Of a DNA stretch of 36,984 bases, positions 561 to 34,941 are shown in pieces. Position numbers and translations under genes: made by a program. Each line of letters begins with the position of its first letter. Position 1 is the first letter of the stretch. The notes beneath the pieces are model-generated. The model saw nothing but the letters and a program-made list of their open reading frames with translations. It did no database searches and was not told where the DNA came from. Origin of the DNA: a virus; the IMG/VR virus record IMGVR_UViG_3300027754_000228, positions 1 to 36,984 of that record, one strand, 5' to 3'.

Positions 561-567
561 GGACATC

Positions 568-1328: not shown

Positions 1329-1342
1329 CCGATGGCGACACG

Positions 1343-4300: not shown

Positions 4301-4584
4301 AACTCGGGCTGCACTTCCGCGCCGTGATTGCGTCGTTCTCATCGGCGCTGATTGCGGAATTGGATCAACTCGTCTCACGGATCAACACCTGGGCGGGCAA
4401 AGAGCATCTGTCTGACGGGACGCACGGCGACATCAGTGTCACCGGGTTGACGTTTGGCGGCGAGACGCAAACGACGGTGGGCGCGGCGGGGGCGGCGACG
4501 GCATTGCCGGCCACGCCTTCTGGCTATGCCGTCTTTACCATCGGGACGACCGAATACGTCCTCCCGTATTACGCGAAGAGCTAA
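4297..4584 (+). CDS. Small tail-associated protein
   Basis: A 95-residue protein overlapping the nozzle gene by ATGA. Residues 1-35 form a hydrophobic amphipathic helix. The rest is Gly/Ala/Thr-rich and ends with a motif of the type Ala-Leu-Pro-Ala-Thr-Pro-x-x-Tyr followed by a short strand and V-L-P-Y-Y. That ending recurs in phage tail genes located beside fibres; its function is not known to me. A role as fibre attachment or tail tip subunit is inferred from the position directly before the fibre gene. Confidence 0.7.
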   Translation: MKLGLHFRAVIASFSSALIAELDQLVSRINTWAGKEHLSDGTHGDISVTGLTFGGETQTTVGAAGAATALPATPSGYAVFTIGTTEYVLPYYAKS

Positions 4585-4595
4585 AGGACTATTCA

Positions 4596-5912
4596 ATGCC
4601 TGCTGCATGGACGACACCGAGAAACTGGACCGCGGGCGAACTCGTCACCGCCGCCATTGGTAATTCGGCGTGGCGCGACAACCTGATGTATTTGAAGGAC
4701 TCGCCCGTCTTCGATGGCAACGTGACGGTGACGGGCACGACGCTGTTGACTGGCGTGGCGACGCTCACCGCCGCCCCGGTGTTTAGTTCTGCCACGGCTT
4801 CGCAGGCGGTCTTCACCAACGGCAGCAAGGCCCTGGTCAGTAATGCCATCACGGGCACGGGCAACGTGGTGATGAGCGCGAGCCCGACCCTGACGGGCAC
4901 CATTGCTGGCTCGGCGATGACGCTGAGCAGCACCCTCGGCGTGACGGGTGCCACGACCCTGTCCTCGACCGTGGCGACCGGCGCGTTGACCGTGACCGGT
5001 GCGGCAACCGTCTCGACGACACTGGGCGTCACGGGTGCGACCACCTTGTCGTCTACGGTAGCGACCGGTGCGCTGACGGTGACCGGTGCCGCGACGGTCT
5101 CCACGACCCTCGGCGTGACCGGTGCAACCACGCTGTCGTCCGGCACCTACAGCACGTTCCTCAAAAGCACCACGGCCCTCGCGACCCCTGCGGCCCTGAC
5201 CGCCACGCAAGCCACCGCGTTTGCCAGCACCGTGTCTGGTAGCGCCATTATGGGCTTCGGCACGACCAACGATGTCGCGCTAATGAACCGTGCAGGGACG
5301 GTCGTGTTAGGCGTCGGCCCGAATACGACCACCGTCAATATGACGGGCCTCCTCACCGTCTCGGGCTTCGGGACGCACAGCTTTAGTGCGAGTGGGGCGG
5401 GTTTCAACGCGATACAGGTTGAAAATACAACCAGCGGAGCAGCAGCCCGAGCCTATGCGTTAGTCACGGCTGGTTCGGTCAACGCTCAGTTGTTTGCCTT
5501 TTCGCAAGGTTATACGACTGGAACGTGGGACAAGCAAGCAGCAACTGCGCTGTATGCAGACGGTGCAGGCGGCATCAGTATCGTCGCCTCTAACGCCTCC
5601 GGCGCCATCCGCTTCTACGCTGGCGGGACGACGTTGCGGGGGTCGTTTGATACCTCTGGTAATTTAGGTTTAGTGCTTCCGCTGAAGCTGCAAAACAACT
5701 CATCGGCCATGACAACGGCACTCGCCATGTCTGGCAATGCGTACGACGTGGTGATCCTTGGTGGAAACTCAAACTATTCCGGTCTGTACTACAGCGCGAC
5801 TGTGCCAGCAGCCAACGCAGGGTTAAACGGAGCGGTGCAAGTAACTACCACGGGTTCTATCTATTTCTATTCTGGCGGGTCGAGATACGTTCTCGCCGGG
5901 GTGTTAGCTTAA
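4596..5912 (+). CDS. Tail fibre / receptor-binding protein with 29-residue repeats
   Basis: A 438-residue protein. The first 35 residues (W-T-T-P-R-N-W-T-A-G-E-L type, then R-D-N-L) match the conserved N-terminus of many phage tail fibres and probably anchor to the tail. Residues 114-182 hold two full and one partial copy of a 29-residue Thr/Val/Gly repeat, as in trimeric beta-helical shafts. The region after about residue 270 is compositionally different and likely forms the receptor-binding tip. AAAGGA lies eight bases before the ATG. The reading frame stays open for 26 codons after the TAA (see 5913-5993). Host-range protein by inference. Confidence 0.8.
   Translation: MPAAWTTPRNWTAGELVTAAIGNSAWRDNLMYLKDSPVFDGNVTVTGTTLLTGVATLTAAPVFSSATASQAVFTNGSKALVSNAITGTGNVVMSASPTLTGTIAGSAMTLSSTLGVTGATTLSSTVATGALTVTGAATVSTTLGVTGATTLSSTVATGALTVTGAATVSTTLGVTGATTLSSGTYSTFLKSTTALATPAALTATQATAFASTVSGSAIMGFGTTNDVALMNRAGTVVLGVGPNTTTVNMTGLLTVSGFGTHSFSASGAGFNAIQVENTTSGAAARAYALVTAGSVNAQLFAFSQGYTTGTWDKQAATALYADGAGGISIVASNASGAIRFYAGGTTLRGSFDTSGNLGLVLPLKLQNNSSAMTTALAMSGNAYDVVILGGNSNYSGLYYSATVPAANAGLNGAVQVTTTGSIYFYSGGSRYVLAGVLA
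4935..5141 (+). repeat. Tandem 87-bp coding repeats in fibre shaft
   Basis: Units at 4935-5021, 5022-5108 and a partial unit at 5109-5141 encode the same 29-residue peptide. The DNA copies differ mainly at third codon positions (for example CTC/CTG and GTG/GTC), so the peptide is conserved while the DNA has drifted. Confidence 0.85.
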
Positions 5913-5993
5913 AAAAGATGGATCGTCGGTTGGCAGCAGCACGACGCTCGTCTCGCAGCAATGGAAGCCAAACTTTTAGCAGCAGGAGTATAG
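5913..5993 (+). other. Open 26-codon extension in frame with the fibre gene
   Basis: After the fibre TAA (5910-5912) the same frame stays open to a TAG at 5991-5993, two bases before the next ATG. The translation contains a W-I-V-G-W-Q-Q-H-D-A-R-L stretch and a Glu/Ala/Leu helix, which looks more protein-like than the Arg/Ser-rich frame that starts at ATG 5918. Only one internal ATG (5961) exists in the frame. It may be a lost or read-through fibre C-terminus, or a small gene with an unrecognised start. Confidence 0.35.
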
Positions 5994-5995
5994 AC

Positions 5996-6232
5996 ATGGC
6001 GATAGTCGGTATTTTTCTCGGTGGCACGGTGGCGGTCAGTTCGACGGGTGTGCTGACGATGGGGGCAAGCGTCCAGATGATCGACAGCGAACTCGGTGAG
6101 GTGGGACAGCGGAATATTCCAGCCACAGACCCTGCGACTATCGCGCAAGTCAATGCGACGTTGCAGTCGATGATGCCGCAGTTGTCCATTGATGCGGGCT
6201 TCCCCGTGACGATGCCGGGAGTCACGCCATGA
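5996..6232 (+). CDS. Small hypothetical protein of the tail region
   Basis: A 78-residue protein from ATG 5996. I chose this start because AGGAG lies eight bases upstream. The longer frame from ATG 5918 adds an Arg/Ser-rich segment with no convincing ribosome site. Residues 1-20 are hydrophobic and Gly-rich. The middle has S-V-Q-M-I-D-S-E-L-G-E, and the end is rich in Met, Pro and Thr. No family is recognised. It overlaps the following gene by ATGA, and its position between the fibre and the internal-protein block suggests a minor virion or assembly role. Confidence 0.6.
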   Translation: MAIVGIFLGGTVAVSSTGVLTMGASVQMIDSELGEVGQRNIPATDPATIAQVNATLQSMMPQLSIDAGFPVTMPGVTP

Positions 6233-6441
6233 CGAACTACTGGCGGCTCAAGGCGGCAGTGTTGACGCGGCAACTGGCCATGCAGCAGCTACAGGCTGAG
6301 GCGGAGAAGGTGCAAGCCGCATATGCGGCAGCGATGTTGGCCGAGGGCATGGAGGCTGGGAAGAATTATCAGTTCAACGATGCCGATGAGACCGCGGTCG
6401 AGGTGACCCAGGTGGAATCAGAGTCGAATGATGGCGCGTAA
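6229..6441 (+). CDS. Small coiled-coil protein
   Basis: A 70-residue protein starting at an ATGA overlap. Residues 5-45 form a continuous Gln/Ala/Leu/Glu helix with hydrophobic residues at heptad spacing, so a coiled coil is likely. The C-terminal 25 residues are acidic. It overlaps the next gene by 14 bases. No known family. Small acidic coiled-coil proteins here could be chaperones or assembly factors for the ejection proteins encoded just downstream; that is inference from position. Confidence 0.7.
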   Translation: MTNYWRLKAAVLTRQLAMQQLQAEAEKVQAAYAAAMLAEGMEAGKNYQFNDADETAVEVTQVESESNDGA

Positions 6442-7402
6442 CAACTTTAACGACGACGATCTGGATCAGGATGCGCTGCTGGCGCAGTTGGAGGCTAGCG
6501 GTGACCCAGGCACCGGAGGGACCGTCCTGGGTGGAGGACAAAGAAGCCCCATGGAGGGCGGCCCTTACGACGACACCATGGGCGGGCGCTTACCGCGGGG
6601 GTCCGTGCAGACATTTGGTGGCCCTTCCGACGGCCTCTCGAACACGGGGAACCAAGGCCAGATCGGGCATATTACCCGTGGCGGCACTGTGCCGCTTGGG
6701 CCACTTGTAGGGCCGGATGATGCGCCCACATCAAACACGATGCCGGTCGATCGCAAGCCGGTGCCGCAGACGATGCTTGGCGGGACGACCACGACGCCGC
6801 CCGCGTTCACCAGGGATACGCGGGACGCCCTGAAGTACGGCAACGTCGGGCGCATGGAAGGCTTTAACACGGGGGACTACGGCGGCGATCTGAAGGCCCG
6901 CAACTCCGTGAAGAACACATTCGGCCGGATTGCCAGCCGCTACGCCAACGCGCCGAACTCGGTGGAGGTCATGATGGCCGACCCTGACTTCAAATCGGCC
7001 TTCCCGAACGCGAAACGGGTGGCCGGAGGCGCAGGCGACAAGATCGACTTTGGCGGCGTGCTGAGCGATTTTGAGAGCGGTTCGCCGGTCGGCGTGGTCG
7101 ATGTGCTGACCGCGAGCGACCCCCGGAACAACACCGCGAACGGGTGGGCGTGGATGCCCGATGGCGAAGGCGGCATGGTGCAGGGCGGTGGCCCTGCGGC
7201 ACAAGCGAACGCGCCCACGGGTGGTCAGCGCATCGACAATGGCTCGATTGGACGCCCCGCCCCCGCCGACGCCCCAGCGCAGACCCCGCCCCAGAACGCG
7301 GACCCGATGGCGGCGATCATGGCAGAAATTCAAGCGTTGCAAAACGGGGGCGGATCGCCGATGGAGCAGGACGCACTCTTGCAGCTGCTGGGGGCCGTGT
7401 AA
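6428..7402 (+). CDS. Putative internal virion protein with cargo motif at both ends
   Basis: A 324-residue protein. Residues 12-21 read LDQDALLAQL and residues 312-321 read MEQDALLQLL, the same helical motif found at the N-termini of the proteins at 10540, 29287 and 32151. Residues 25-130 are Gly/Pro/Thr-rich and probably disordered. A compact region (about 150-245) contains FGRIASRYA, DPDF and KIDFGGVLSDFESG, which looks like a conserved globular domain of unknown function. A Pro/Ala linker follows. It is the first large gene of the block before lysis, where P22-like phages encode ejection proteins. An ATG lies at 6428 and another at 6431; neither has a strong ribosome site. Confidence 0.75.
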   Translation: MMARNNFNDDDLDQDALLAQLEASGDPGTGGTVLGGGQRSPMEGGPYDDTMGGRLPRGSVQTFGGPSDGLSNTGNQGQIGHITRGGTVPLGPLVGPDDAPTSNTMPVDRKPVPQTMLGGTTTTPPAFTRDTRDALKYGNVGRMEGFNTGDYGGDLKARNSVKNTFGRIASRYANAPNSVEVMMADPDFKSAFPNAKRVAGGAGDKIDFGGVLSDFESGSPVGVVDVLTASDPRNNTANGWAWMPDGEGGMVQGGGPAAQANAPTGGQRIDNGSIGRPAPADAPAQTPPQNADPMAAIMAEIQALQNGGGSPMEQDALLQLLGAV

Positions 7403-8616
7403 TGGCAAAAGACTGGCAAGGACGTACATTTAACGAGGACTGGGAACCCATCGACGCGATGGGTAACAAGACGGGCGAGAAAGATTGGGACGCCAATCGG
7501 TCGTGGAATGAGCAGAACAACCCTGCCGACGTGAACAACTTCTCGCAGGACATTCTCGATCGCACGGGGGGATGGAAGGGGGCACCGGGGACGGGCGTAA
7601 TCGGGATGAACCCTGGTGGGCCCCGCGCCTCTGCCGCCCCCGCCTCGGTTGCGCCTTCGACCTCGTTTGCGTGGGATGACGGTGCCGCGCCGTCTGTCAC
7701 TGCGCCCAACCTCGATGCCGCCGCGATGATGAGCCAACTACAGGGCCCCGCCGCGCTCGGCCAGGTGCAGGGTCCGCAAGCCCTCGCGCAACTTGGCGCA
7801 GCGCCCACGGTGGCGGCGGCGGGGCCCACGTCACAGTTTGGGCAGTCGGTGCAGGGGTCGATTCAGAGCGGCTTGGCGGCCCCAGCGGTCAACGAGAACG
7901 ATCCCGCCTATCGGGCACAGGTGGATGCTTATAACCGCAACTCGCAGCGGTCGGCGGAACGGATGCGGGCCTCGGCGGCCCAGCGAGCGAACGCCACCGG
8001 CACGATCGGGTCGGGCGGGTTCGATGCAGGCGTGAATCGCATCCTCCAGAATCAGGGCGCACAGGAAGCGGACTTTGAAGCGCAGTTGATGCAGAGCGAA
8101 TTGAACGCCGGCCGCGAACGACAGGCGCGGGCGCAACAACTCGGCGCGGGGTTGTTCTCGCAGGAACAGCAGCAGGATCTGACGACTCGGCTGGCGAATC
8201 AGCAGGGCGCTCTCACGGGTATGGGGATGAACAACCAGCGCGACCTGAGCAACCAGAATACGGCCATGCAGACGATCGGCCTGAACTCGGGCCGCGATCA
8301 GGCGAATCAGGCCGCGCAACTCCAGACGCTCGGGATGAACAATCAGCGGGATCTGACGGGCTACGGCGCACAGAACCAGCGCGACCTGACCCGCTATGGT
8401 GGGCAGTTGCAAGCGGGGTTGGCGAATCAAGGCGCACAGATGCAGCAGCGGGGCTACAACCTACAACGCGATCTGGGGTTGAGTGATCTGGACTTCCGGA
8501 ACCGTCAGAGCAATCAGCAGAACGACCAATATTACTCGGGCCTCGGGCAACAGTTGGGGTTGGAGACGGCGCGGTTGAATCAGCAGGCCCTCTTGAGCCT
8601 GATGGGTGGAGGTTAG
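7402..8616 (+). CDS. Putative internal/ejection protein, Gln/Asn-rich repeats
   Basis: A 404-residue protein from an ATG overlapping the previous TAA (TAATG). Residues 1-75 are polar with Trp and Asp. Residues 75-160 are Ala/Pro/Gln-rich. The rest is a long helical Gln/Asn/Ala-rich region in which variants of N-x-Q-R-D-L recur (about residues 275-370), suggesting an extended repeated helix. The end, LNQQALLSLM (392-401), resembles the ten-residue motif of the neighbouring proteins. Position and composition fit a podovirus ejection protein that leaves the virion with DNA; there is no direct functional motif. Confidence 0.75.
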   Translation: MAKDWQGRTFNEDWEPIDAMGNKTGEKDWDANRSWNEQNNPADVNNFSQDILDRTGGWKGAPGTGVIGMNPGGPRASAAPASVAPSTSFAWDDGAAPSVTAPNLDAAAMMSQLQGPAALGQVQGPQALAQLGAAPTVAAAGPTSQFGQSVQGSIQSGLAAPAVNENDPAYRAQVDAYNRNSQRSAERMRASAAQRANATGTIGSGGFDAGVNRILQNQGAQEADFEAQLMQSELNAGRERQARAQQLGAGLFSQEQQQDLTTRLANQQGALTGMGMNNQRDLSNQNTAMQTIGLNSGRDQANQAAQLQTLGMNNQRDLTGYGAQNQRDLTRYGGQLQAGLANQGAQMQQRGYNLQRDLGLSDLDFRNRQSNQQNDQYYSGLGQQLGLETARLNQQALLSLMGGG

Positions 8617-8617
8617 G

Positions 8618-9460
8618 ATGCTGCCAGCAATACTTGCCGGCGCGGGGTTACTCGGGAATCTGTTTGGCGGCACCGCCAAAGGTTCGGCGGCCGAGCGCGG
8701 CAACCAGAACGACTACGCGCAACGCCAGAATCAGCTCGCGCAGCAGCAGTTTGGCACGCAGCAGAACGCGCTGTTGCAGTCCATCCTCGCGGGTGGACGC
8801 GACTCAATAGATCGCTACCAGACCCAGCAGGGCGCGACGACCAGCGCCCTGGGCAACCAGTCGCAGGAAGCCACCGGACGCTACGGGATTCAGCAAGGGG
8901 CCACGACGACCGCCCTGGGCAACCAGTCGCAGGAAGGGCTCCAACGCGCCCGCCTCGGCATGGATTCGGGCACCGCTCGAGCCCGTCAGTCGATCATGGG
9001 GTCGCTCATGGCGAACATGCAGCCGGTGAGTGTGCAAGCGCAAGGGCAAGTGCGCGGACGTGTCCCGGTGATTAGTGGCGGCCTGTCGGCCTCGGCGCTC
9101 AGTCCAGAGACCCGCCAGCACGGATCGGAACTGTCGAAGGCGGCCTTGATGGCGCAGTTGACCGGCAGCGACGTGCCCGCGGCCACGGACTTCAAGAGCG
9201 GCATTCTCAACGCGCCCGCGGCGACAGACTTCAGGAGCGGGATTCTTGACGCACCCGCCGCGACGGATTACAGCAAGGGGATCATGGCCCCGCCGAACCA
9301 GCAGGGCTACCAGAAGGCCGGGAAGGTCGAGTCGATCATGTCCTTGCTCAGCATGATCTTGGGCGGGGCGGGCGCGGTGGGACAGGCGAAGTATGGCACC
9401 AGCATTCCGGGCGTCCCGTTCGATACGACGCCCCCGCCACCGCCAGGATACAGAGGGTGA
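8618..9460 (+). CDS. Putative internal/ejection protein with tandem repeats
   Basis: A 280-residue protein. I chose ATG 8618 because GGAGG lies just upstream. Residues 3-18 are hydrophobic and Gly-rich, a membrane-active N-terminus as seen in podovirus internal proteins. A Gln-rich helix follows, with QQNALLQSIL at 48-57. Two 22-residue repeats start at residue 66, and three 13-residue repeats (PAATDF type) start at residue 187. The C-terminal region has a hydrophobic Met/Leu/Gly stretch and a poly-proline tail. Role in DNA ejection is inferred from composition and neighbours. Confidence 0.75.
   Translation: MLPAILAGAGLLGNLFGGTAKGSAAERGNQNDYAQRQNQLAQQQFGTQQNALLQSILAGGRDSIDRYQTQQGATTSALGNQSQEATGRYGIQQGATTTALGNQSQEGLQRARLGMDSGTARARQSIMGSLMANMQPVSVQAQGQVRGRVPVISGGLSASALSPETRQHGSELSKAALMAQLTGSDVPAATDFKSGILNAPAATDFRSGILDAPAATDYSKGIMAPPNQQGYQKAGKVESIMSLLSMILGGAGAVGQAKYGTSIPGVPFDTTPPPPPGYRG
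8813..8944 (+). repeat. Two 66-bp coding repeats
   Basis: Units 8813-8878 and 8879-8944 both encode R-Y-x-x-Q-Q-G-A-T-T-x-A-L-G-N-Q-S-Q-E followed by three variable residues. The GCCCTGGGCAACCAGTCGCA core is identical in both, so the duplication looks fairly recent. Confidence 0.8.
9176..9292 (+). repeat. Three 39-bp coding repeats
   Basis: Units at 9176-9214, 9215-9253 and 9254-9292 each encode P-A-A-T-D-[FY] followed by a Ser/Lys-Gly-Ile segment. The first two are nearly identical in protein; the third has diverged. The unit repeats in the middle of a putative ejection protein. Confidence 0.85.
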
Positions 9461-9466
9461 CGCATC

Positions 9467-10540
9467 ATGTTTAGTCTCAGTGGACAGGTCGCAGGCGGGC
9501 TGCAGACCGCGCTCGATGAGGTCATGGAACGTCGGCTGCGCGAACAGATGCGCCGGCAGCAGGAGCAGCAGCAGGCCGCGCAACTCGCGTTGCAGCAGCG
9601 GCAGCAGCAAGGCGTGGAAGACGATCGCACCTACCGCCGGGACAATGATCGACGGGTCATCGACCTTGCGGAGATGGAGCGCATCGACGCGAAAGCGCAA
9701 CAGGCCACGGATCGCAACATCAGCCTCGATGCGGCGAACGTGATGAACATGCCGGGGATGACACCACAGGCGCGGGCGGATGAGCTTAACCAGTCCGTGT
9801 TCCGCAACCCGAAGGCGTCCTCGGCTCCCGATATGCGGCGAGTCATCGAGGGGCTGACCAAGCGACCGGATCGGGTGCAATACACCTACACCAACCCGAA
9901 GACGGGCAACCAATCCACTCGGTTTGGGAACCCCGACGAGATGCCGGCCGGTGGGTTTGACATGGGCAACGAACCACAGAAACCCGAACGTGGCCCAGCG
10001 CCCGACTACGAATGGGTGATGCGTAACGGCAAGCCCGTGCAGATTCGCAAGGGCAACGCGCAGATGGGCGACAGCCCTTACGAGAAGGCGGCAGCGGGCA
10101 GCGGGGCCGAAGCGCAAGAGAAGATGCTGACCGCCGCAGACGTGAAGGCCGCGGCGAATGCCCTACTGAAACATAAGGGATTCGAGGGGGCGTTTGGGTT
10201 AGCGAACTCACGGATGCCAACGTTCTCGCAGAATACCGCCGACGCGGAAGCCTTGCGCGACCGTGTGTCGTCGCTGCTGCAACTAGCCAATATGGGCAAG
10301 ATGAAGGGCATCTTGTCCGACTCCGACATGAAGGTAATCAAGTCAGCGAGTACCACGCTGAGTAATCGTCTCTCTGGGAAATCGGCACGGACGGAACTGG
10401 ACCGCGTGATCAAGATCATGGATCGCATCGAGAGCGGGATGCCGGGGATGGATATGGCGACTTCTCGCGACGGCCAACAGGACGACCTGGATGCTGAGAT
10501 CGCCCGCATCCGTGCGGCGAGACGACTGGGAGGGCGGTAG
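9467..10540 (+). CDS. Putative internal/ejection protein, coiled-coil
   Basis: A 357-residue protein. Residues 18-60 form a Gln/Arg-rich coiled coil. The centre (130-200) is polar with Asn, Gly and Pro. The C-terminal part (about 215-330) contains GFEGAFG, then T-F-S-Q-N-T-A-D-A and G-I-L-S-D-S-D-M-K, a pattern I have seen in phage internal proteins of unknown function. GAGGGTGA overlaps the previous stop and serves as ribosome site. It overlaps the next gene (start GTG at 10540) by one base. An ejection-complex role is inferred from its place in the block. Confidence 0.75.
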   Translation: MFSLSGQVAGGLQTALDEVMERRLREQMRRQQEQQQAAQLALQQRQQQGVEDDRTYRRDNDRRVIDLAEMERIDAKAQQATDRNISLDAANVMNMPGMTPQARADELNQSVFRNPKASSAPDMRRVIEGLTKRPDRVQYTYTNPKTGNQSTRFGNPDEMPAGGFDMGNEPQKPERGPAPDYEWVMRNGKPVQIRKGNAQMGDSPYEKAAAGSGAEAQEKMLTAADVKAAANALLKHKGFEGAFGLANSRMPTFSQNTADAEALRDRVSSLLQLANMGKMKGILSDSDMKVIKSASTTLSNRLSGKSARTELDRVIKIMDRIESGMPGMDMATSRDGQQDDLDAEIARIRAARRLGGR

Positions 10541-11835
10541 TGGAACAAGATCGCCTTTCCGATCAGGCGCTCCTCAAACTGCTCGACAGCAACGATGATG
10601 TGTCGTTCCTGACGCCCCAAGAGAAGCAGCGCATGGTGTCGCTGGCGAATCCGTCAGCGGGTGGCCCTCCTGAACCGTCCGTGATGGACGAGCGCGGGAT
10701 GGTGGATCGTGCGGTCGATTACCTCCCGGCTGCACTCAGCACAGGCATGGGGTTTCTGGGCGGCACGAAACGCACGCTCCCAGGCGCGGCGTTGGCTGGC
10801 CTCGGCGGGGCTGGTGGCGAAGGGCTGCGTCAGACGGTGCGAGCCATGCAGGGGCGCACGGATGAATATCCCGACACCCCGGCCGGCCAGCTGCGCCGCA
10901 TGGGCGAATCAGGTGTGGGAGGGGCCACGACGGAACTCGGTGGTCGTGCGGTCATTGGGGGGCTCAAGCGGTTGGCTCCATCCTTTATGCGTTCGGCGTT
11001 TGGCGCACAGACGCAAGTGCGTAAGGCGTTTCCGGACGTGGACCTCGAGCGAGCGGCACTGGATGCGCGAGCGATTCCAGGGTCCACCCGGTCGATGAAC
11101 GCTGTGCAACAGGCCGGGCAACAGGGCGCGGCCACGCTCCGCAACGACCTCAAAGTCATCGACATTGCCTCTGGGAATGCGCCTGTGGCGTCCCACGCGG
11201 ATGCCGTGTCGGTGCTGCGTCGTAGAGCGCCGGATGCACGCATGGGGGCTCGCGGTGGCGCTCCGGCGGAACTCAACGCGGTCAAGGATGGCTTACGCCA
11301 AGTTCGCGACATGAGAGGGCGACCCCTCAACGCCGAGGAAACATTTGTGGCTAAGCAGGCGCACCAGCGTGCGGGAGCCGCCGCGCAACGATCGCAAGCC
11401 GGTGCCGAGGCCGAAGCTGGCGCAGAAGTCAGCAGCGACATCGGTCAAGGATTGGTGGCGGCCCTGAAGGCGAAGCATCCAGAAATCGAAGCGCAACTCA
11501 GCACGCAGCAGGGGCTGATGGCGCTGCAACGGGCGATGGAGAACGCGCAGACACGGACGCCCCTATTGCGGACGATTGCCTCCAATACCGCAGGCGCGGG
11601 TGCGGGCGCGGCGATTTACGGAGCTACGGGCGACCCGCTCTCGTCGCTCTTAGCGGCGGCGGCGGTGCCAGCGGTGACCCACGCCGTGACCTCTCCCGCG
11701 AGTTTGGCTCGGATGGGTATCACGTCCGATGCGGGCGCACGCATGATGCAGTCCGCCGGGGCGCGTATCCCAGACGCACTGTTACGGAAACAGTTGCTTG
11801 AGCTCTTGAGCGGTAAATACCAAGGGCAGGAATGA
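10540..11835 (+). CDS. Putative internal/ejection protein with membrane-active segments
   Basis: A 431-residue protein from a GTG sharing its G with the previous TAG. Residues 6-15 (LSDQALLKLL) resemble the cargo motif of the proteins at 6428, 29287 and 32151. Residues 60-100 are Gly/Ala/Leu-rich and could insert in a membrane, as could the segment near residues 345-385. Between them lies a long Arg/Ala-rich helical region. Last gene of the ejection block, directly before the lysis enzyme (ATGA overlap). The size and composition suit a protein that forms part of a trans-envelope channel; this is inference. Confidence 0.7.
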   Translation: MEQDRLSDQALLKLLDSNDDVSFLTPQEKQRMVSLANPSAGGPPEPSVMDERGMVDRAVDYLPAALSTGMGFLGGTKRTLPGAALAGLGGAGGEGLRQTVRAMQGRTDEYPDTPAGQLRRMGESGVGGATTELGGRAVIGGLKRLAPSFMRSAFGAQTQVRKAFPDVDLERAALDARAIPGSTRSMNAVQQAGQQGAATLRNDLKVIDIASGNAPVASHADAVSVLRRRAPDARMGARGGAPAELNAVKDGLRQVRDMRGRPLNAEETFVAKQAHQRAGAAAQRSQAGAEAEAGAEVSSDIGQGLVAALKAKHPEIEAQLSTQQGLMALQRAMENAQTRTPLLRTIASNTAGAGAGAAIYGATGDPLSSLLAAAAVPAVTHAVTSPASLARMGITSDAGARMMQSAGARIPDALLRKQLLELLSGKYQGQE

Positions 11836-14155: not shown

Positions 14156-15259
14156 TTATTGCGTTTTCTTTCGTGTTTTTTTGAGTGCCCCTTGATCGTG
14201 GTTTCGGTGTTTAAAATCCAGCATATTTGACTGTTTCTGACCCGTGCCACGTTTTGAAAACGTGGCACGGATGGCCTCAGCCATGCGGTCTTTCACCGCC
14301 GACTGAGCATACCTCGCGGTCTGGGCGGGCGTCGAATGCAGGGCCAGGTGAGAGACGGCGTGGATGTCGCCGGTCTTCCGGTAGACCTCGGTCAGAAACG
14401 AGTGGCGCAGGTCGTAGGCGCGGATGCTCTTCGGGATGTCCTTGCGCGTGGCACGGGCGTTCCTCACGGCGTTGCGAAACGCCTTCGCCGAGCTCGACCG
14501 AGAGAACTCGCCCCAGCAGTCGGCGGCCGCGAAGTCCTTGAAGGCTTGCACGGCCTGTGGGGAGAGCGGCAGGGTGCGCCCTGGTGATCCTTTCCCCTTG
14601 CGCCGGGGACTGACGCGCACGGTCTTGGCCTTCAGGTCCACATCGGCCGGCGTGAGTTGGGCGATCTGCGCTTGGGGGAGGCCGGTGTAGGCCATGACGG
14701 CGAAGCGGGCGCGGCTCTGAGTCGGCCCCATCTGGTCGAGGATGGCCGTGATGACCGAATAGGGGAGGCTGCGGGGCGTGTCGTAGCGTTCCCTGACCTT
14801 CGGCACCTCTCGGACGGGGTTGTAGCCGCTGGCCCCGCTGAGGCTCTTGTAGAGGCTGCTGAGCACTTGGCGGCGGTGGTTGAGGGTGGAAGGGGCGTTG
14901 TGCCAGGCGGCCAGTTGCTGGCGCACGTCCACGGCGGTGATGGCGTCTCGGTGGCGGTCGCCAAACGCCGTCACCCAGTGGGTGAGGATGTCGTCGGCGT
15001 CGGCCTTATGGCGTCCGGTGAGGGTCGAGAGGTAGGTGGCGGCGTCGGCGCGGAGGGTGTCGGCGGTGGCTTCCTCGCGCTCGAGCTTGAGCGCCCCGGC
15101 CTGCTTGAGCGTCAGCCGTTCCTTGATGAGCTCGGCCACGTCGGAATCGTGGGGGCAGCGGTATTCGTGGGGCTTGCCGTTGACCGAAACGATCACGGCG
15201 ATCCCGATGGCATCCCGAAAGATGCCGGTGGCGATGCGTTGACGTAACCCTCTCGGCAT
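14156..15259 (-). CDS. int: Tyrosine recombinase (phage integrase)
   Basis: A 367-residue protein. Residues 60-150 form a core-binding SAM-like domain. The catalytic domain (about 165-325) has the Lys-rich beta hairpin (RRKGKG, 219-224), YDLRHSF (282-288; Arg285), His308 and the nucleophile Tyr317 in HSTPAQTARY. The usual first catalytic Arg of TG-x-R is replaced: here the text is TGLPQAQ, with Pro195. It reads toward the attP-like tRNA half 30 bases beyond its stop. The 172 bp upstream (15260-15431) probably hold its promoter. It integrates the phage at a host tRNA-Arg gene by inference. Confidence 0.85.
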   Translation of the reverse strand: MPRGLRQRIATGIFRDAIGIAVIVSVNGKPHEYRCPHDSDVAELIKERLTLKQAGALKLEREEATADTLRADAATYLSTLTGRHKADADDILTHWVTAFGDRHRDAITAVDVRQQLAAWHNAPSTLNHRRQVLSSLYKSLSGASGYNPVREVPKVRERYDTPRSLPYSVITAILDQMGPTQSRARFAVMAYTGLPQAQIAQLTPADVDLKAKTVRVSPRRKGKGSPGRTLPLSPQAVQAFKDFAAADCWGEFSRSSSAKAFRNAVRNARATRKDIPKSIRAYDLRHSFLTEVYRKTGDIHAVSHLALHSTPAQTARYAQSAVKDRMAEAIRATFSKRGTGQKQSNMLDFKHRNHDQGALKKTRKKTQ

Positions 15260-26654: not shown

Positions 26655-27271
26655 GGGTGAGTGACCTGCGCGTCGGCCTCGGCCTCGACTGGGGGAACGC
26701 CTCGCCTGGCTGCGTGGTCTTCGCCGCGGCCCTCCCGAACGGCCACGTCCACGTCTTCGATGAATACAAATTCCAACGCATGACCGCGAAAGACGTGGCC
26801 GCCGCGGTCAAAGAGAAGTGCGCGGACTGGGGCTTATCGCGGGTGCCGTCCTGTGCGTGTGATCCGTCGCTGCTGCCGGCCACCACGGGGGAGCAGGGCG
26901 AGTGGATCGGCCTGACGCTGATGCGGCATGGCTTGCCGGTGCATCGGGTGTCGAATGACCGGGTGAACGGCTGGCAGCGGGTGCATGAGGCGCTGGCGAT
27001 TGACCCGATCACCGGCACCCCGTGGCTCACCGTGCATCCCCGCTGCAAGTATGGTTCACGCACGATCCCGCTGATGGTGCAGTCGCGCAACAACCCCGAA
27101 GACCTCGATTCTGACAGCGACGATCATTTTGCCGACAGCCTCCGCTATCTGCTGATGGGGGGCTTGCGACCGGACACCGGCCGCAGGACACCCGCAGAAG
27201 TGCCAGCCTACAGCGGGGCGTGGTGGCGCAAGATGAGCGGGAACCGTAATGCTCGAGGAGTCCTCGCCTAA
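26651..27271 (+). CDS. terL: Terminase large subunit, nuclease half
   Basis: A 206-residue protein from an ATGA overlap with the ATPase gene. It has the RNase H-like nuclease pattern: VGLGLDWG with Asp13, CACDPS with Asp71, and DSDDHFADSLRYLL with Asp162, the metal-binding acids that cut DNA at packaging start and end. Normal large terminases carry this domain on the same chain. The halves abut with no missing residues, so this may be a true gene split, a frameshift site or a sequencing indel. The two halves differ in codon tone (see findings). Confidence 0.85.
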   Translation: MRVSDLRVGLGLDWGNASPGCVVFAAALPNGHVHVFDEYKFQRMTAKDVAAAVKEKCADWGLSRVPSCACDPSLLPATTGEQGEWIGLTLMRHGLPVHRVSNDRVNGWQRVHEALAIDPITGTPWLTVHPRCKYGSRTIPLMVQSRNNPEDLDSDSDDHFADSLRYLLMGGLRPDTGRRTPAEVPAYSGAWWRKMSGNRNARGVLA

Positions 27272-29285
27272 CCCGCCGACTGCGCCCGCGCCTGCGCCTG
27301 CGTCGGCCCCGCCGTCCGCCGTGCGTCCGCTGTCGCCGGAGGATCTGACCTTTTGGCGAGCGGAAATTGACCGCGCCCGCACCCTGCGGAACGACGTGAT
27401 TGCCCGGTGGGATAGCGTCGGCAATCTGGAACGCTACACCCCGGAATCGGTCAAGACGAACAACAACCTGCTCGATGCGCGGGTGAACGTCGCCAAGGAC
27501 TTTTCGGACGTGGAGCGCAAGAAGGCCGCGCTGTTCTACGACACGCCCGAAATTGCGCTGGTGCCGGACCCCGGCACCGATGGGTCGCTGCTCCCGCTCC
27601 ATGCGGAGTTCCTGAATACGTTGCTCTCGAGCAAGCAGATGGACGCAAAAGCGACCGTGCTGCCGACGATTCAGGATTGTCTGGTGGCGTTGCAGCCCGT
27701 GCCCACGGAAATTGGCTACAACTCGGTCACGGTGCAGGTCGAACAGCCGGTGGTGGACCCGATGACGGGGCAACCGGCGATCGATCCGATGACCGGGGCC
27801 CCGCAGATGCAGTCGGTGCCGGTGATCGTCTGGGAAGAGTTCTTCTGGCGGCGGGTGAGCCCGAAAGCGCAGTTGATCCCCGTCCAGATGCGCGACACGA
27901 TCTACGACCGGGCCCCCTGGTTGGCGTTTGAGTGGCGCAAACCGTTGTCGCAGGTGCGCCGGCAGTTCCAACTGCCCGAGACGTTTACCGGCGGGGGAGA
28001 TAGTGGTCGGGAACGGCCCTATTTCCAGCCCATTGGCGCGTCCACAGAAGACAGCGAACCGATGGTCAGCGGCGTCAAGCTCTGGTATCGAGCCGCGTTT
28101 CGTGATCCCGAGGTCACGCACCCCGAGATCATCCGCGAGCTCGAGCTCATTGAGGGCTACGACCTGCCGGTGGTGCATCGAGACTCTCCGTATCAGTCGG
28201 TGAACCCGCAGACCGGCCGGCTGACGCCGGATTCGCTGACCGGCTACCCGGACCACCCGCTGGCGTTGCGGGATCTGACGGATTCGCCCTATGTGGCCGC
28301 GGATTGCACCCTGACCGGCCCGTTGACGCGGGAACTGAACAAGTCACGGACGACGAACATCCAGCAGCGCGACGGGTCGAAGCTGCATGTGTTCTACGAC
28401 CCGTCCAAGGTCAATGAGGACGTGCGCTCGCAGATTGAACAGGGCGATGCCCCGACGATGATCCCGGTGATGCCGGGGGCGCTCGATGGCGGCACCGACC
28501 GCATGATGGCGCAAGTGCCGGCGTTGCAGCAGTCTCGGGATTCGTTCACCACGCAGCAAATCATCGAACACGACCGGGCGGATATTCTCGGGATTAACTC
28601 CAACACGGTCGGCGGCAGTTCGCGGGGGTCCAAGACCGCGACCGAAGTCCAGAACGTCCAGCGCAACACCGACGCCCGCTTTGAGCAGGAACGTCAGCGG
28701 GTGCTGGAGTGGTGGATTAAGGGCGTCCAGAAGCTCTCGGCGCTCGTCCTGCGCTACGGCGACCGCCTGGCGGTGGAAATCCTCGGCCCGCAGCGGGGGC
28801 AGCAGTGGGTGCAGAGCAAGGCGCAGTTCGGGCCGTTCAGTTTTGAGGTCGTGATCGACTCCGGCAATTACACCGACATCGAATCCCGCAAGCGCCAAGA
28901 TTTGCAACTCTATAACTTGACCGCCAAAGACCCGACGCTGAATCGGAGTGTGGTGCAGGCGCGATTGGCGACGGACTTTGGTCTGAACCCCGCCGAATGG
29001 CTGATCACGAAGCAGCCGGAAGATAAGCCGGAAGCACCGACCGTCTCGATTGCCGTGAAACCTGAAGATCTCGATCCGGCGCTGCCGTCGTATGTGGGCA
29101 CCTACGCGATCTTGACGGCGGGGGGAGTCAAAGGCTTACCCCCGCCCCAACCGATGATGGGCATGGCCCCACCGCCGCAGCAACCGAATCAGCCCGGTCA
29201 CGGCGGCATGGCGGAACTTCAGCCGCGGCTGAACCAGCACCAGATGGATGAAAGCGGAGCAAACCCCGGACCAGCGGTGAACTGA
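27249..29285 (+). CDS. Portal protein
   Basis: A 678-residue protein. The N-terminus is Pro/Ala-rich (1-30). A helical region follows with RKKAALFYDTPEIALVP, a pattern of podovirus portals, then a wing with P-M-T-G-Q repeats (180-200). The centre and C-terminal half hold long helices (about 430-510, SRGSKTATEVQNVQRNT) for the stem and crown. A Pro/Gln-rich tail ends it. Portals form the dodecameric DNA gate at one capsid vertex and bind terminase and adaptor. It overlaps the nuclease by 23 bases and precedes cargo genes, as in P22-like phages. Length suits the family. Confidence 0.85.
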   Translation: MLEESSPNPPTAPAPAPASAPPSAVRPLSPEDLTFWRAEIDRARTLRNDVIARWDSVGNLERYTPESVKTNNNLLDARVNVAKDFSDVERKKAALFYDTPEIALVPDPGTDGSLLPLHAEFLNTLLSSKQMDAKATVLPTIQDCLVALQPVPTEIGYNSVTVQVEQPVVDPMTGQPAIDPMTGAPQMQSVPVIVWEEFFWRRVSPKAQLIPVQMRDTIYDRAPWLAFEWRKPLSQVRRQFQLPETFTGGGDSGRERPYFQPIGASTEDSEPMVSGVKLWYRAAFRDPEVTHPEIIRELELIEGYDLPVVHRDSPYQSVNPQTGRLTPDSLTGYPDHPLALRDLTDSPYVAADCTLTGPLTRELNKSRTTNIQQRDGSKLHVFYDPSKVNEDVRSQIEQGDAPTMIPVMPGALDGGTDRMMAQVPALQQSRDSFTTQQIIEHDRADILGINSNTVGGSSRGSKTATEVQNVQRNTDARFEQERQRVLEWWIKGVQKLSALVLRYGDRLAVEILGPQRGQQWVQSKAQFGPFSFEVVIDSGNYTDIESRKRQDLQLYNLTAKDPTLNRSVVQARLATDFGLNPAEWLITKQPEDKPEAPTVSIAVKPEDLDPALPSYVGTYAILTAGGVKGLPPPQPMMGMAPPPQQPNQPGHGGMAELQPRLNQHQMDESGANPGPAVN

Positions 29286-29286
29286 G

Positions 29287-31557
29287 ATGCTGCTGAACGA
29301 GGAGCAGGAACTCGAGCAGGACGCCTTACTCGCGCAGTTAGGCATCCAGCCGCCTCCGCGCCCTGATGTGAAAACGAAGAACGCCAAGATGCTCGAGGCG
29401 CTCAGGGCGCTGGTCGATGCCGGCGCTCCGCAGCGTCCGGTGGTGTCAGGGCCGCGCCCCCCATCGCTCGGTGGTCGGCGTCTCCCTGATCTGCCTCCCG
29501 AGGGCGGCGAAATTCTCGGACGCGCCAAGAGCCTGCCGGATTTCCTGAATAACACCCCGCTCGGGCTGTTGGGCGATGTCAGCAACCCGATGGAGAACAT
29601 GGACGCGGCGGGCCCGGTGGCGGGCGTCGTTAAAGGTGCCGCGGCGACGGCGAAGTCGGCCACGCGGGCGATGCTGGACGAGGCATTCCCGACGTTCGAC
29701 GCCTACGCGAAAAAGAAGGGGTTCCTACAGCCGCAGACCGTGCTGGAGCGGTTGCTCGCGCATCCGTCCGCGACACCAGAGATGATCGCGAAGGCGGAAG
29801 CGATGGTCGCGAACGGTCAGAAACTAAAACCAGCCGAAGTGGTGGACGTGCTGAGTGGCGTGAAACATGACCGCGGACGTGTGCTGAGAAAAGGCGTCTC
29901 GCAAGTCACGAAGGAGAACATCCCTGGTGCGCCCCTCTGGGTCACGTCTCCCGCAAAGGAACGCGAAGCGGCTGATGGCTACCTGCAACTGATGGAAGAG
30001 GGAGCGCCAGGGCGCAACTTCTATCGCGATTCAGGGGCGAAGTTGTTTCACCTCAGTGGTGAGAATGCCGACACCGCCAACCTGCTCGGCATCGGGGCGT
30101 CAGCCACGTCACCGACCACAAGTGTCGGCGCGAATACCGGGTTTATATTCAAGGGTCACGGGCAGGCTGTCGCGGGTGTGCCGGTTAAAACGGGACGATT
30201 CCCCGGCAATATGTCGAAGCCCATCACGGCCGCGCACGCGGGCGACAACTCGACATACCTCGGGCCGAAGCGTGATCCGTTCGTGCGACAGATCGCGATG
30301 GGCGGTGGCTATGCGACACCAGAGCAGATGACCGACCGTGCGGTTCACGACATCTGGGAAGGCGAAGCGTGGAAGTACGTCGAGCCAGACGGTACTCCGA
30401 TCCGCCGTGGGTTCACGCCTGCGGAGCATCGGTGGATGGACAAGATGACCGATCAGGCCATCGTGGACGCCAACAAACGTCAGGTGGCCGGCTTCACTGA
30501 CTGGGACGCGGGAACCGGGCAGGCGTCAACGTGGACGGGCGCAAAGATCCGTGCCGGCGATATTGAACCGGGAGACGCAGCGAAGTCATTTGCCGACTAC
30601 ACGCCACGCTACGAGATGCAGATGGGTCGCGAGTCGCGGCCTGGCACATCGACAGGGCACCTGGCCGGCTTAAAAGACCTACCACCAGCCGTGCAGCAGG
30701 AGTATCACGATGGCGTGATGGCGATCACACTGGACGCCAAGGGGCGTGATCGGTCTTGGCTGGAAAAGGGGTTACCGAGTGAAGGCAGTACGCATGGCCC
30801 CGGCGTGTTTGAGAACGAGATCTCGCCAGGCACCCAAGTGAAGAACATTGTCGGCACCGAAGGCTCCGGGAAGACACGACAGGTGGAAGCGGCCAACATG
30901 GGGTTAGCGCGGGCCAACGAAGCGGAGTACGCACTGCTGAATGTGCAGAACGCGATGGCCGGCAACATGCTGAACGATGGGGCGCTCGCCGCAGAGCGAG
31001 ACATGTTCGACCTGGTCAAGCCGTCAGGGAAACTCGCCGAAGGCGATGACGTGTTGACGCATCCGCGCATCCAGCAGGAACTCATGGCCGGCAATGGCGG
31101 CAATGTGGCGGTCATGCCGATTGACCAGGGTGCAAGGGTCAAGAACATCGGGATGCCGCAGTCCGACTTCGCGTCGTTGATTAAGCAGTTGACGACAGAT
31201 ACGAGCGGCAAGTCGGTCGCCGGGAAAGATATGGGGTTCTACGAGAACCTGCCGTGGAACACGCCGGATAACGAGGTGGGTCAGTTGTATGCGCGGATCA
31301 TCCGCGATGAGATCCCGAACGGCAAGGCCCTCTTCAACAAGAGTGCGCCCGCGAGAGCGCAGGCGCGGCATGACTACGATGCCCAGTTCGCGACGAAGTA
31401 CAACTTGCCCGTCAACGAGAAAATCCAAGAGCTACGCAGAGCGATCGCGCAGCACGGGTTCGATGGCGTCAATCTGGTTGCGAAGAAGTACGGTCTACCG
31501 CTGGCGGCGGTGATGCTGATGGTCCAGCAGGCGATGGGCGAGGAGCCAGCTTCGTGA
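29287..31557 (+). CDS. Large putative virion cargo protein (polyvalent type)
   Basis: A 756-residue protein. Residues 9-18 (LEQDALLAQL) are the cargo motif. Then come a Pro-rich segment, an Ala/Gly-rich region (about 95-125), and a large central part (about 200-690) with KLFHLSGENADTANLLGIG, then IFKGHG and MSKPITAAHAGDNSTYLGP, and later KNIVGTEGSGKTRQVE. It ends with AKKYGLPLAAVMLMVQQA, similar to the end of the protein at 32151. I recognise no enzyme; the look is of phage polyvalent proteins delivered with DNA. The GSGKT (about 520) is a P-loop-like string, but no Walker B partner is seen. Confidence 0.65.
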   Translation: MLLNEEQELEQDALLAQLGIQPPPRPDVKTKNAKMLEALRALVDAGAPQRPVVSGPRPPSLGGRRLPDLPPEGGEILGRAKSLPDFLNNTPLGLLGDVSNPMENMDAAGPVAGVVKGAAATAKSATRAMLDEAFPTFDAYAKKKGFLQPQTVLERLLAHPSATPEMIAKAEAMVANGQKLKPAEVVDVLSGVKHDRGRVLRKGVSQVTKENIPGAPLWVTSPAKEREAADGYLQLMEEGAPGRNFYRDSGAKLFHLSGENADTANLLGIGASATSPTTSVGANTGFIFKGHGQAVAGVPVKTGRFPGNMSKPITAAHAGDNSTYLGPKRDPFVRQIAMGGGYATPEQMTDRAVHDIWEGEAWKYVEPDGTPIRRGFTPAEHRWMDKMTDQAIVDANKRQVAGFTDWDAGTGQASTWTGAKIRAGDIEPGDAAKSFADYTPRYEMQMGRESRPGTSTGHLAGLKDLPPAVQQEYHDGVMAITLDAKGRDRSWLEKGLPSEGSTHGPGVFENEISPGTQVKNIVGTEGSGKTRQVEAANMGLARANEAEYALLNVQNAMAGNMLNDGALAAERDMFDLVKPSGKLAEGDDVLTHPRIQQELMAGNGGNVAVMPIDQGARVKNIGMPQSDFASLIKQLTTDTSGKSVAGKDMGFYENLPWNTPDNEVGQLYARIIRDEIPNGKALFNKSAPARAQARHDYDAQFATKYNLPVNEKIQELRRAIAQHGFDGVNLVAKKYGLPLAAVMLMVQQAMGEEPAS

Positions 31558-31758: not shown

Positions 31759-32154
31759 ATGATTTGCGACATCTGCCACGCGGAAATACACGTCGGGGAT
31801 TGGCCGTTTTGTGACGTGGGCGGCGGACACAGCCGCGGCACGAATACCGTCGTGGCCGATGACGTGCCTGGCGGGTTCGTGGTCGAGAACGGCTTCGACC
31901 GCCCCACACGTTTCGACAGCAAATCGGATCATCAACGCGCCTTAGCTGCTCGAGGGCTCGAGTTGCGCGTCAAGAATGCCGGCCCCGAGGACAAGATCAT
32001 CTCCCGCTGGGATACGGTCGATCTCGACGCGGCCAAGACGTTGCTGGAGCGTGGCCCCCAGGCGCGGCGTGAGAGGGCTGACCGCTGGCCGCTGGCGACC
32101 GAACCGATCACCGTCACGGTGGGCGGGGTCATTACGTCCAAGGATCTTGCGTGA
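31759..32154 (+). CDS. Zinc-ribbon protein of the head cluster
   Basis: A 131-residue protein from ATG 31759. CDICH (residues 3-7) and W-P-F-C (15-18) with following Gly/His form a zinc knuckle of the type found in small phage proteins next to portal and capsid genes. The middle is acidic and the C-terminus Arg-rich. The GTG 31735 start would add eight residues but has no ribosome site. It overlaps the ADP-ribosyltransferase-like gene by GTGA. Role unknown. Confidence 0.65.
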   Translation: MICDICHAEIHVGDWPFCDVGGGHSRGTNTVVADDVPGGFVVENGFDRPTRFDSKSDHQRALAARGLELRVKNAGPEDKIISRWDTVDLDAAKTLLERGPQARRERADRWPLATEPITVTVGGVITSKDLA

Positions 32155-33338
32155 CGAATCCGCTGGAGCGGGACGCGCTGTTGTCACTGCTCGCGGGTGG
32201 CCGTATGGAGCAGTCACGGGGGCCGATGATGCGGAACCCGACGCCCGACTGGCTGAAGCGGGAGAACGACAGCGTGTTCGATTCCATGCCTGAGAAGGCA
32301 GCGAAAGCGCTGCTGCGGCTGTTGGGTGCCGACGACCCGAGCGGTCAGGTGATTGGCATCGCCGCTCCGGTGGAGGTGCCTGGTGGTGTCGCGTCACCCC
32401 TGAAACGGGCGGCTGATGCTGTCGGTGGCGCGGTCAAGAAAGGCATCAAAGCCTTTCACGGCTCCCCGCATGACTTCGACCAGTTTTCGTCGGCCAAGAT
32501 CGGGACGGGCGAAGGAAACCAGTCTTATTTACGTGGGCTGTACATGGCCGAGAAGCCCACGGTTGGGCGCGACTATCGGGACATGTCGCCTGTGGCGGAT
32601 CGTGCTTCCGGTAAACCACTCGATACAGACCTTCGCATCGGTGGAAAGCTGGTTCATGAGTTATATGCAGACATCGAGCGTAAGGCAGCGCGGCTGTCGA
32701 ACAAGGATGCCGAGCCTTTGTATGAGCAATTGTCTGGTCTTGAGTCACTAATGCAGCACGGTGATTTCCTCGGGGTTCAGGAAGCTGCTGAGGCCGGTCA
32801 GGTGACGCCGAGGGCGATGGAGTGGATGAAGTCCATCGAGCCAAAGTTCACGCGCAAGGGCAAGCTTTATGAAGTCTCCATCAACGCCGATCCCGAGGAC
32901 TTCCTCGATTGGGATGCGCCCCTGAGCCAGCAGAGCGAGAAGGTGCGGCAGAAACTACCCGCCTACTTGCAGCCGCAAGAAGGGGAAAGCATGGGCAACT
33001 CGCTGCGAAGGATTCGGATAGACGAAGACCCGGAAGAGAGCCTACGCGCTGCTGGTATCCAGGGCATTAAGTATCTTGACGAAGGCTCCCGTGGGCCATC
33101 GCTTCGCATTGGTCTTTTAAAAGACAGAATTGCGAGAGAGAAAGCCCAAGGTCTTCCGTTTGACCATTGGCAGCAGGAACTGGACGCGCTTGAAAAAACG
33201 CAGTCCACTCGCAACTACGTCGTGTTTGATGACAAGTTAATCAGCATCGTGAAGAAATACGGCATTGCCGCCGCGCTCAGTGGTGGCCTCATCAATCAGG
33301 CGCAAGCCGCCCAACTCAAGAAACAAGGGCACCAGTGA
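32151..33338 (+). CDS. ADP-ribosyltransferase-like virion cargo protein
   Basis: A 395-residue protein from GTG 32151. Residues 5-14 (LERDALLSLL) are the cargo motif. KGIKAFHGSPHDFDQF (97-112), KIGTGEGNQSYLRGLYMAE (about 116-134), GIKYLDEGSRGPS (about 300) and NYVVFDDKLISIVKKYG (about 358-374) form the pattern of phage ART-type polyvalent domains. The H of HGS and the Tyr of GLY are expected NAD-site residues. The C-terminus resembles that of the protein at 29287. Probably ejected with DNA to modify host proteins; activity and target are inferred. Confidence 0.75.
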   Translation: MTNPLERDALLSLLAGGRMEQSRGPMMRNPTPDWLKRENDSVFDSMPEKAAKALLRLLGADDPSGQVIGIAAPVEVPGGVASPLKRAADAVGGAVKKGIKAFHGSPHDFDQFSSAKIGTGEGNQSYLRGLYMAEKPTVGRDYRDMSPVADRASGKPLDTDLRIGGKLVHELYADIERKAARLSNKDAEPLYEQLSGLESLMQHGDFLGVQEAAEAGQVTPRAMEWMKSIEPKFTRKGKLYEVSINADPEDFLDWDAPLSQQSEKVRQKLPAYLQPQEGESMGNSLRRIRIDEDPEESLRAAGIQGIKYLDEGSRGPSLRIGLLKDRIAREKAQGLPFDHWQQELDALEKTQSTRNYVVFDDKLISIVKKYGIAAALSGGLINQAQAAQLKKQGHQ

Positions 33339-33924: not shown

Positions 33925-34941
33925 TTGGAAGACACGACTGGCGGATCGTCCGCTGTTGCAGAGGCCCCAGCTTCGGCTGGTGCGAGTAGTCCGACGGTTT
34001 CGGCCGATAGACCGACCTCATTCGCGGAAGCGATGGCGTCGGTGGGAGATGCGGCCCCTCCCGATCCCGGTGACCCGGTTCCTGTAGGGCAGACACCGCC
34101 CGTGGCCGCGACAGCGCCACCGCCCACCGCAGACCTCGCACCGGATGCGTCCGTTCCGACCGCTGATCCCAAGGGCCCGATCCCGTTCGACCGTCACGAA
34201 AGCGCATTAAAGAATGCGCGGACGAAAACGGCGTCCGAGATCACCCAGCAGTTTCAGCAGCAGTACGGCGCTCACGTTGAGCTCGGGAACAGGTTTCAGG
34301 CCGATCCGATTGGGACGATGACGCAACTCCTTCAGGAGTTCAGTCAGCATCCCGAGTATGGCCCCCAGGTCGCTGCCATCGCTGCCCGCACCCTCGGTGC
34401 GCGGCGGGGACAACAGCAGCCGCAGGTGGCTGAGGATACGGAACCACAAGCCGACTATCAGATGCCAGACGGCGAAGCGTTTACGTCAGCCAGACGATTG
34501 GCTGAAATTCGCGCCTACGACCGCCAGCAGATTCTGAAAGAAGTCGGGGAGATGGTGCAGCCGCTGAAGCAGCGGGAACAGCAGCAAGTCGCGCAGGAGC
34601 GGTATCAGGAAGCCACGCAGGCCGCCCACGACCGCATGAGCAAGGTGCTGGCCCCCTACAAGGCGCTGCCTGAATTTACCGAACACCGGCCCGCGATTGC
34701 GGCGAAGGCCAAGTCCTACATGGACGAGGGCCACGACCCGCAAACGGCGTTGGGGTTGGCGGTGACGAGTGTTCTACGTGAGACCGTGATGCCCAGTCGG
34801 ACGGCCCAGAGTCAGCAACAGTTGATGGCCCGAGCGGTAGCGAAATCTACCGGGTCCACCAACGCTCCGGGTACGTCTCCTGCCGCTCCCGCCGGCCGTC
34901 CGCAATCGTTTGCGGAAGGCTTTGGCGCGATTGCGATGTAG
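33925..34941 (+). CDS. Capsid scaffolding protein, putative
   Basis: A 338-residue protein from TTG 33925. AAAGGA eight bases upstream decides this start. Residues 1-95 are Pro/Ala/Ser-rich. The middle is helical with Gln and Glu (about 105-160 and 200-260), a coiled-coil layout usual for scaffolds, which guide coat assembly and then leave. DRPTSFAEAMA near residue 28 and GRPQSFAEGF near 325 are alike, so a short motif appears at both ends. It directly precedes the coat gene. Assignment rests on composition and order. Confidence 0.7.
   Translation: MEDTTGGSSAVAEAPASAGASSPTVSADRPTSFAEAMASVGDAAPPDPGDPVPVGQTPPVAATAPPPTADLAPDASVPTADPKGPIPFDRHESALKNARTKTASEITQQFQQQYGAHVELGNRFQADPIGTMTQLLQEFSQHPEYGPQVAAIAARTLGARRGQQQPQVAEDTEPQADYQMPDGEAFTSARRLAEIRAYDRQQILKEVGEMVQPLKQREQQQVAQERYQEATQAAHDRMSKVLAPYKALPEFTEHRPAIAAKAKSYMDEGHDPQTALGLAVTSVLRETVMPSRTAQSQQQLMARAVAKSTGSTNAPGTSPAAPAGRPQSFAEGFGAIAM

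Follow-up and report, generated by a model that had tools for sequence, protein, structure and literature searches.

A terminal decapeptide common to ejection-block proteins and putative passenger enzymes of an uncultured podovirus-like phage

The capsid targeting sequence (CTS) of phage T4, carried by internal proteins such as IPIII, is N-terminal and is cleaved off by the prohead protease. As a concept, it is cited in PMC9024508 and PMC5512222. In phage P1, TetR-mCherry can be packaged by means of the N-terminal 30 residues of DarB alone. Further Dar proteins are likewise injected, and the authors' search for a consensus among them was without result (PMC9024508). Phage proteins with the ADP-ribosyltransferase (ART)-related domain ART-PolyVal (PF18760) are predicted to be packaged, and the available part of the work concerned describes no recruitment tag for them (PMC5512222). 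In this study, IMG/VR record IMGVR_UViG_3300027754_000228 from an uncultured, podovirus-like phage (36,984 bases, the whole of which is called the window) was analyzed for a decapeptide, L-x-x-[DQ]-A-L-L-x-x-L, which the original prediction had proposed to be a helical packaging or docking tag on several otherwise unrelated proteins.

All seven peptides quoted in that prediction were found at their assigned residues, and six of them conform to the strict motif [LM]xx[DQ]ALLxx[LM]. Late genes lie on the + strand throughout. Three of the carriers are encoded in a block of internal or ejection-type genes (6428-11835) that follows the tail genes (18-6232). The first gene of the block (6428..7402; 324 amino acids) has the tag at both ends, LDQDALLAQL at residues 12-21 (6461..6490) and MEQDALLQLL at residues 312-321 (7361..7390), around a conserved middle domain (approximately residues 127-250) with homologues in L123, L144 and L117. 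The second (7402..8616; 404 amino acids) is repetitive and Q/N-rich and carries LNQQALLSLM at residues 392-401 (8575..8604), and the last (10540..11835; 431 amino acids) carries LSDQALLKLL at residues 6-15 (10555..10584) in a conserved 30-residue N-terminus, with a weaker look-alike, LLRKQLLELL, towards its C-terminus (11779-11808). The other two carriers are extra genes in the interval between the portal gene and the probable scaffolding gene, namely 29287..31557 (756 amino acids), with LEQDALLAQL at residues 9-18 (29311..29340), and 32151..33338 (GTG start), with LERDALLSLL at residues 5-14 (32163..32192). The seventh peptide, QQNALLQSIL (approximately 8759-8788), had been offered as a weaker version and was not counted; it is internal to the otherwise untagged third ejection-block gene (8606..9460, ATG at 8618) and lies in that family's own conserved stretch, within a 47% identical alignment of the product with its own homologue.

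The strict motif occurred 6 times in the curated proteome of 57 genes, whereas 2000 within-protein shuffles yielded 0.011 on average and never more than 1. A six-frame search of the window (73,964 codons) returned the same 6 matches and no others, all in real reading frames. Every match started or ended no more than 12 residues from a protein end, which would have a probability of approximately 4e-8 under random positions. Five of the 7 ejection or cargo genes were tagged compared with 0 of the other 50 (p = 5e-6, with 29287 and 32151 assigned to that class partly post hoc); with the late and early halves of the genome as the sole classes, the enrichment gave p = 0.013. BLASTP between the five tagged proteins revealed no similarity except the tag, in agreement with their description as otherwise unrelated. 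Codons differed at many identical tag residues and the tag flanks were at background identity, indicating that an amino-acid sequence is shared and not a recently copied DNA segment.

The tag was conserved in relatives. Contig IMGVR_3300046791_000308 (L002/L003/L013) has a portal protein 62-64% identical to that of the window and the same ejection block. The L003 homologue of the 6428 product is shorter (231 versus 324 amino acids) and could be aligned convincingly at its two ends only, DDDLDQDALLAQL with DDDLDKKALMDQL (tag LDKKALMDQL in L003) and PMEQDALLQLL with PMDQEALLKQL. The presence of tags at the same ends despite divergence elsewhere points to selection. In the same contig, the 7402 counterpart ends with LDQQAMMALLGG and the 10540 counterpart starts with MAQDQPISDAALLRLL (tag ISDAALLRLL). 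Further away, the positional 6428 counterpart in G001 (portal 34% identical) is tag-like at both ends, LRRDAILRGL and SARDAVLNNL, and an L020 gene in the portal-capsid interval starts with EADAILRAGLAPP, similar to the G001 tag RRDAILRGLAPP.

Distant relatives comprised 56 loci from a tail-protein scan, many with ejection blocks. The 6428-type C-terminus is also tag-like in L116 (LDPQELLLQQL), L117 (PDPQALLQQQL) and L123 (EQQALIQMI), and the 10540-type N-terminus reads LSDPALLKLL in L117. Conservation extends furthest for the 7402-type C-terminus, which reads LNQQALISLL in L121, LNQSALQKIL in L116, LNQRALQILY in L117, LNQQAALAGL in L146 and LNQNAALAGL in L130. The L146 ejection block has a changed form of the tag, DQALRKRLTAQ and EDALRKRLMGQ at the N-termini of its first two genes and RAIRKRLTGER at the C-terminus of its last; the sharing of this DALRKRL-type change by these three genes suggests joint evolution with one receptor. 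For a held-out test, 691 genes from the distant loci were searched with a profile derived from the close family. Terminal matches of at least 13 bits were limited to the ejection-block genes (8 of 228, as compared with 0 of 463 others; p = 1.3e-4). Among cultured phages, p55 of Mx8 begins with MTNDFDALLQQM (13.1 bits), and the last gene of the equivalent Mx8 ejection block, annotated as a virion structural protein, ends with RLRQKALAEALGRAP (11.4 bits).

The two tagged genes outside the ejection block appear to be insertions. The cargo interval runs from the portal gene (27249..29285, +; PHROG 15554, E = 0.0018) to the probable scaffolding gene (33925..34941, +), assigned on the basis of its position upstream of the capsid gene and having homologues in L002 and L010-L012. 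In L002, L010 and L011, this interval contains small conserved genes only and no large cargo gene. The 29287 gene, located directly after the portal gene, has no family match, has no counterpart in this interval in L002, L010, L011 or L012, and had no homologues in a search of viral contigs and phages; a seeming resemblance to G001 29738 found no support. The 32151 product is ART-like. It matched PF18760 (ART-PolyVal) with E = 1.3e-4 and 23.1 bits, below the Pfam cut-off of 31.2, while its L012 relative scored 45.0 bits, above the cut-off, and it is 34% identical to a Sulfitobacter phage protein. The L012 interval holds two inserted ART-like genes, and the products of both open with the tag, MDDQSILLQLLG (from a GTG start) and MTDESLDQQALLELLG, reading LDQQALLELL and DDQSILLQLL at the equivalent position. 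The homologue in L033/G014 is 62% identical over residues 96-395, the catalytic part, and has a different, untagged N-terminus. With tags on the L012 genes and none on this homologue, the tag looks like a modular address label. On 6428, 7402 and 10540, the tag is vertically inherited within each family; only on 29287 and 32151 does it look like a later acquisition. The cargo proteins also have a C-terminal pattern in common, in which KKYG or KKFG precedes a hydrophobic stretch and the end contains QA; it was seen in the ART proteins (32151 and the L012 genes) and weakly in the 29287 product.

An ejection role of the block 6428-11835 is indicated by its fourth gene (9467..10540, +), the product of which matched PHROG 2534, annotated as "released from the phage upon host infection" (E = 3e-10; an annotation and not an experiment). 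Through this gene, the block contains a member annotated as released into the host. The L116 homologue of the 9467 product belongs to the same family.

The original prediction placed the tagged genes in two clusters far apart. This did not hold, since an exact 127-base terminal repeat (window 1-127 = 36858-36984) closes the genome, which is very probably complete and circularly closed, and on the circular map the tagged genes form one same-strand late block in which 32151 and 6428 are approximately 10 kb apart. The record is not annotated with end repeats despite this repeat.

The presence of one short docking tag on several internal and ejection proteins that are otherwise unrelated is well supported, because the motif is far above chance, terminal, without homology outside it, conserved, present at the start of inserted, lineage-specific enzyme genes and changed in parallel in at least one distant relative (L146). 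As to its function, we favor, with somewhat more confidence than doubt, the view that the decapeptide is a terminal docking motif that recruits ejection proteins and passenger enzymes during head assembly. The tag would dock the internal proteins to a common partner, presumably a component of the procapsid interior such as the portal, the scaffold or an untagged ejection protein, and binding to this partner would place the tagged proteins in the head. The 9467 product is a candidate receptor. The 756-residue 29287 product and the ART-like 32151 product would be passengers, tagged for packaging, which may be injected with the DNA and act on the new host.

Several observations weigh against recruitment by the tag or narrow its scope. 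Packaging itself is what we infer, and two ejection-type proteins, the 9467 and 8606 products, carry no tag. Most of the 8 held-out matches belong to one homologous family (the 7402-type C-terminus) and are not independent, so the effective sample is smaller. Terminal 10-mer repeats of any kind in the genes of the distant relatives numbered 52, not above the internal control of 46, and no general claim can therefore be made. A scan of the whole viral collection for the strict DNA form of the tag gave 12 matches, 0 of which were credible terminal tags, indicating that the exact form is confined to a small lineage. Finally, the ART protein of L117 reads EQERLQRILG at the tag position, which bears only a loose likeness to LSDPALLKLL of the same phage.

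The alternative that survives best, although we consider it unlikely, is that the ejection machinery uses the tag as a contact in its own assembly, in stacking on the portal or in a trans-envelope conduit, with the enzymes riding on the machine and no packaging signal involved. Every non-cargo tagged protein is indeed in the ejection block, tags at both ends of the 6428 product would be expected of a linker protein, and a cargo protein of crAss001 touches the portal wing and the tail barrel (PMC10172136). Such a contact alone leaves the N-terminal tags of the enzymes in the portal-scaffold interval unexplained, and if riding on the machine is the packaging route, it merges with docking during head assembly. 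More improbable is binding to a host or phage factor for a non-virion purpose, such as chaperone holding, membrane binding or proteolysis control. Short leucine-rich terminal peptides can have roles of this kind and the low hydrophobic moment of the tag leaves the binding mode open, but the tag is found in late genes only, with 0 among the early-half genes of the circularly closed genome. Chance or compositional bias, by which the leucine-, alanine- and glutamine-rich helical ends common in ejection proteins would look alike, fits the naive terminal-repeat count in distant relatives but is very hard to reconcile with 6 matches against 0.011 expected, with ends conserved where the remaining sequence diverged and with tags on enzymes that are not ejection proteins. 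Equally remote is common descent, in which the tagged genes would have arisen as fragments or fusions and owe their common end to duplication of a single ancestral one: the two ART genes of L012 are paralogues with the tag and N-terminal region in common, but the five window proteins lack similarity beyond the tag, which sits at N and C ends with different codons and unrelated flanks.

Docking of cargo during head assembly, as favored here, resembles the T4 CTS in concept, as the original prediction had suggested; both are short terminal peptides that serve a purpose common to internal injected proteins, and T4 also injects an ADP-ribosyltransferase (Alt), as the window has an ART-like cargo gene. 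The parallel did not extend to placement. The T4 CTS is defined by its N-terminal position, and the window tag is at the N-terminus only in three proteins, C-terminal in 7402 and at both ends in 6428; for this reason, it was not placed in the T4 family. No cleavage of the tag is indicated, no protease turned up in the subset of structural genes that was scanned, and the two sequences are not known to be related.

P1 DarB offers a second parallel, an N-terminal packaging signal on a large injected enzyme. Comparison of the P1 Dar protein ends in this study gave no shared tag, and no match to the window tag was seen by eye in DarB residues 1-30 (beginning MNKLSMGVFRCSSVSEILKYIRAITSHRAP). This is different from the window phage, in which one sequence is common to five proteins. 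The 32151 product and its L012 relatives resemble the ART-PolyVal domain, and the window tag sits outside this enzyme domain and is lineage-specific. As in the case of the ejection proteins of P22 (gp7, gp16 and gp20), T7 and crAss001 (gp45), the block of internal proteins follows the tail genes and ejection with the DNA is expected, but a shared terminal decapeptide is not described for those phages in the literature searched.

The helical character attributed to the tag was weakly supported. AlphaFold placed a helix on it, with moderate confidence only in the 10540 protein (predicted local distance difference test score, pLDDT, approximately 57-68) and at approximately 30-35 in the 32151 protein, in models of low overall confidence (mean pLDDT 50 and 45, respectively), and its hydrophobic moment is not high. 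The idea of an amphipathic helix was rejected, the moments of most tags being no higher than the genome median.

Cultured phages are only distantly related to the window phage, the nearest by capsid protein being a Bradyrhizobium phage, Stenotrophomonas phage BUCT555 and Myxococcus phages Mx8 and Mx9 (approximately 30% identity). The only relative recovered by scans of genome contigs is a contig (L028) of a Rhizobium metagenome-assembled genome; it is 98% identical and has a nearly identical portal and both tagged cargo genes. An integrase-like open reading frame (ORF) on the minus strand (14156-15259), recognized by resemblance only, suggests a temperate phage. The terminase (25698-27271, +) precedes the portal gene, and its large subunit is encoded by separate ATPase and nuclease ORFs in the window (25698-26654 and 26594-27271), L002 and L010; in L012, it is a single ORF of 551 amino acids (L012:845-2500). 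The L002 nuclease ORF (L002:6064-7668) contains an intein-like insert (CFVAGTMVLTARGE ... VANGILVSNC), in which an HNH-like ORF is nested in another frame (L002:6924-7472). The major capsid gene is located at 34964-35941 (+). The probable scaffolding protein has a short motif of its own at both ends, DRPTSFAEAM near the N-terminus and GRPQSFAEGF at the C-terminus, kept in close relatives (e.g., L002:10681-11727); distant scaffolds (L116, L117, L141, L144 and L160) have other matching end pairs, TPDxxLDxxF, SDDSLAAEIL/TDDDLAAEIL and TIGDAxAALA.

End motifs were also seen on ART proteins of other, unrelated phages. One, [LI]xPV[DE]HDPF, was present at both termini in L037, L040, L052 and L103. 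Across the three contigs examined in full and 40 kb of the fourth, it was on the ART protein only, and it is thus a lead and not support. Large ART-domain phage proteins start with tandem short repeats, GWE[DS]APLL (L045:4675), PK[YW]EDS (L110:3622), NPLxKYRDMDAA (L089:1813) and LS[ED]EEF[LM]G (L084:619), which are possibly the tags of other phages.

To our knowledge, how phages choose the enzymes that they carry and inject is largely unknown beyond T4 and P1, and since the P1 Dar proteins lack a consensus, a shared tag in the group of the window phage is of note. A wider, more tentative proposal is that the tag is a lineage-specific "zip code", one peptide at either protein end marking everything loaded with the ejection machinery, in which code and receptor would co-evolve (DALLxxL versus DALRKRL) and host-modifying enzymes would become cargo by acquiring the local tag. 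If recruitment by the tag is true, injected effectors would be predictable from sequence alone, the recruitment step could be tested by a ten-residue fusion, and the tag could serve as a small, portable means of bringing reporter proteins into laboratory phage particles.

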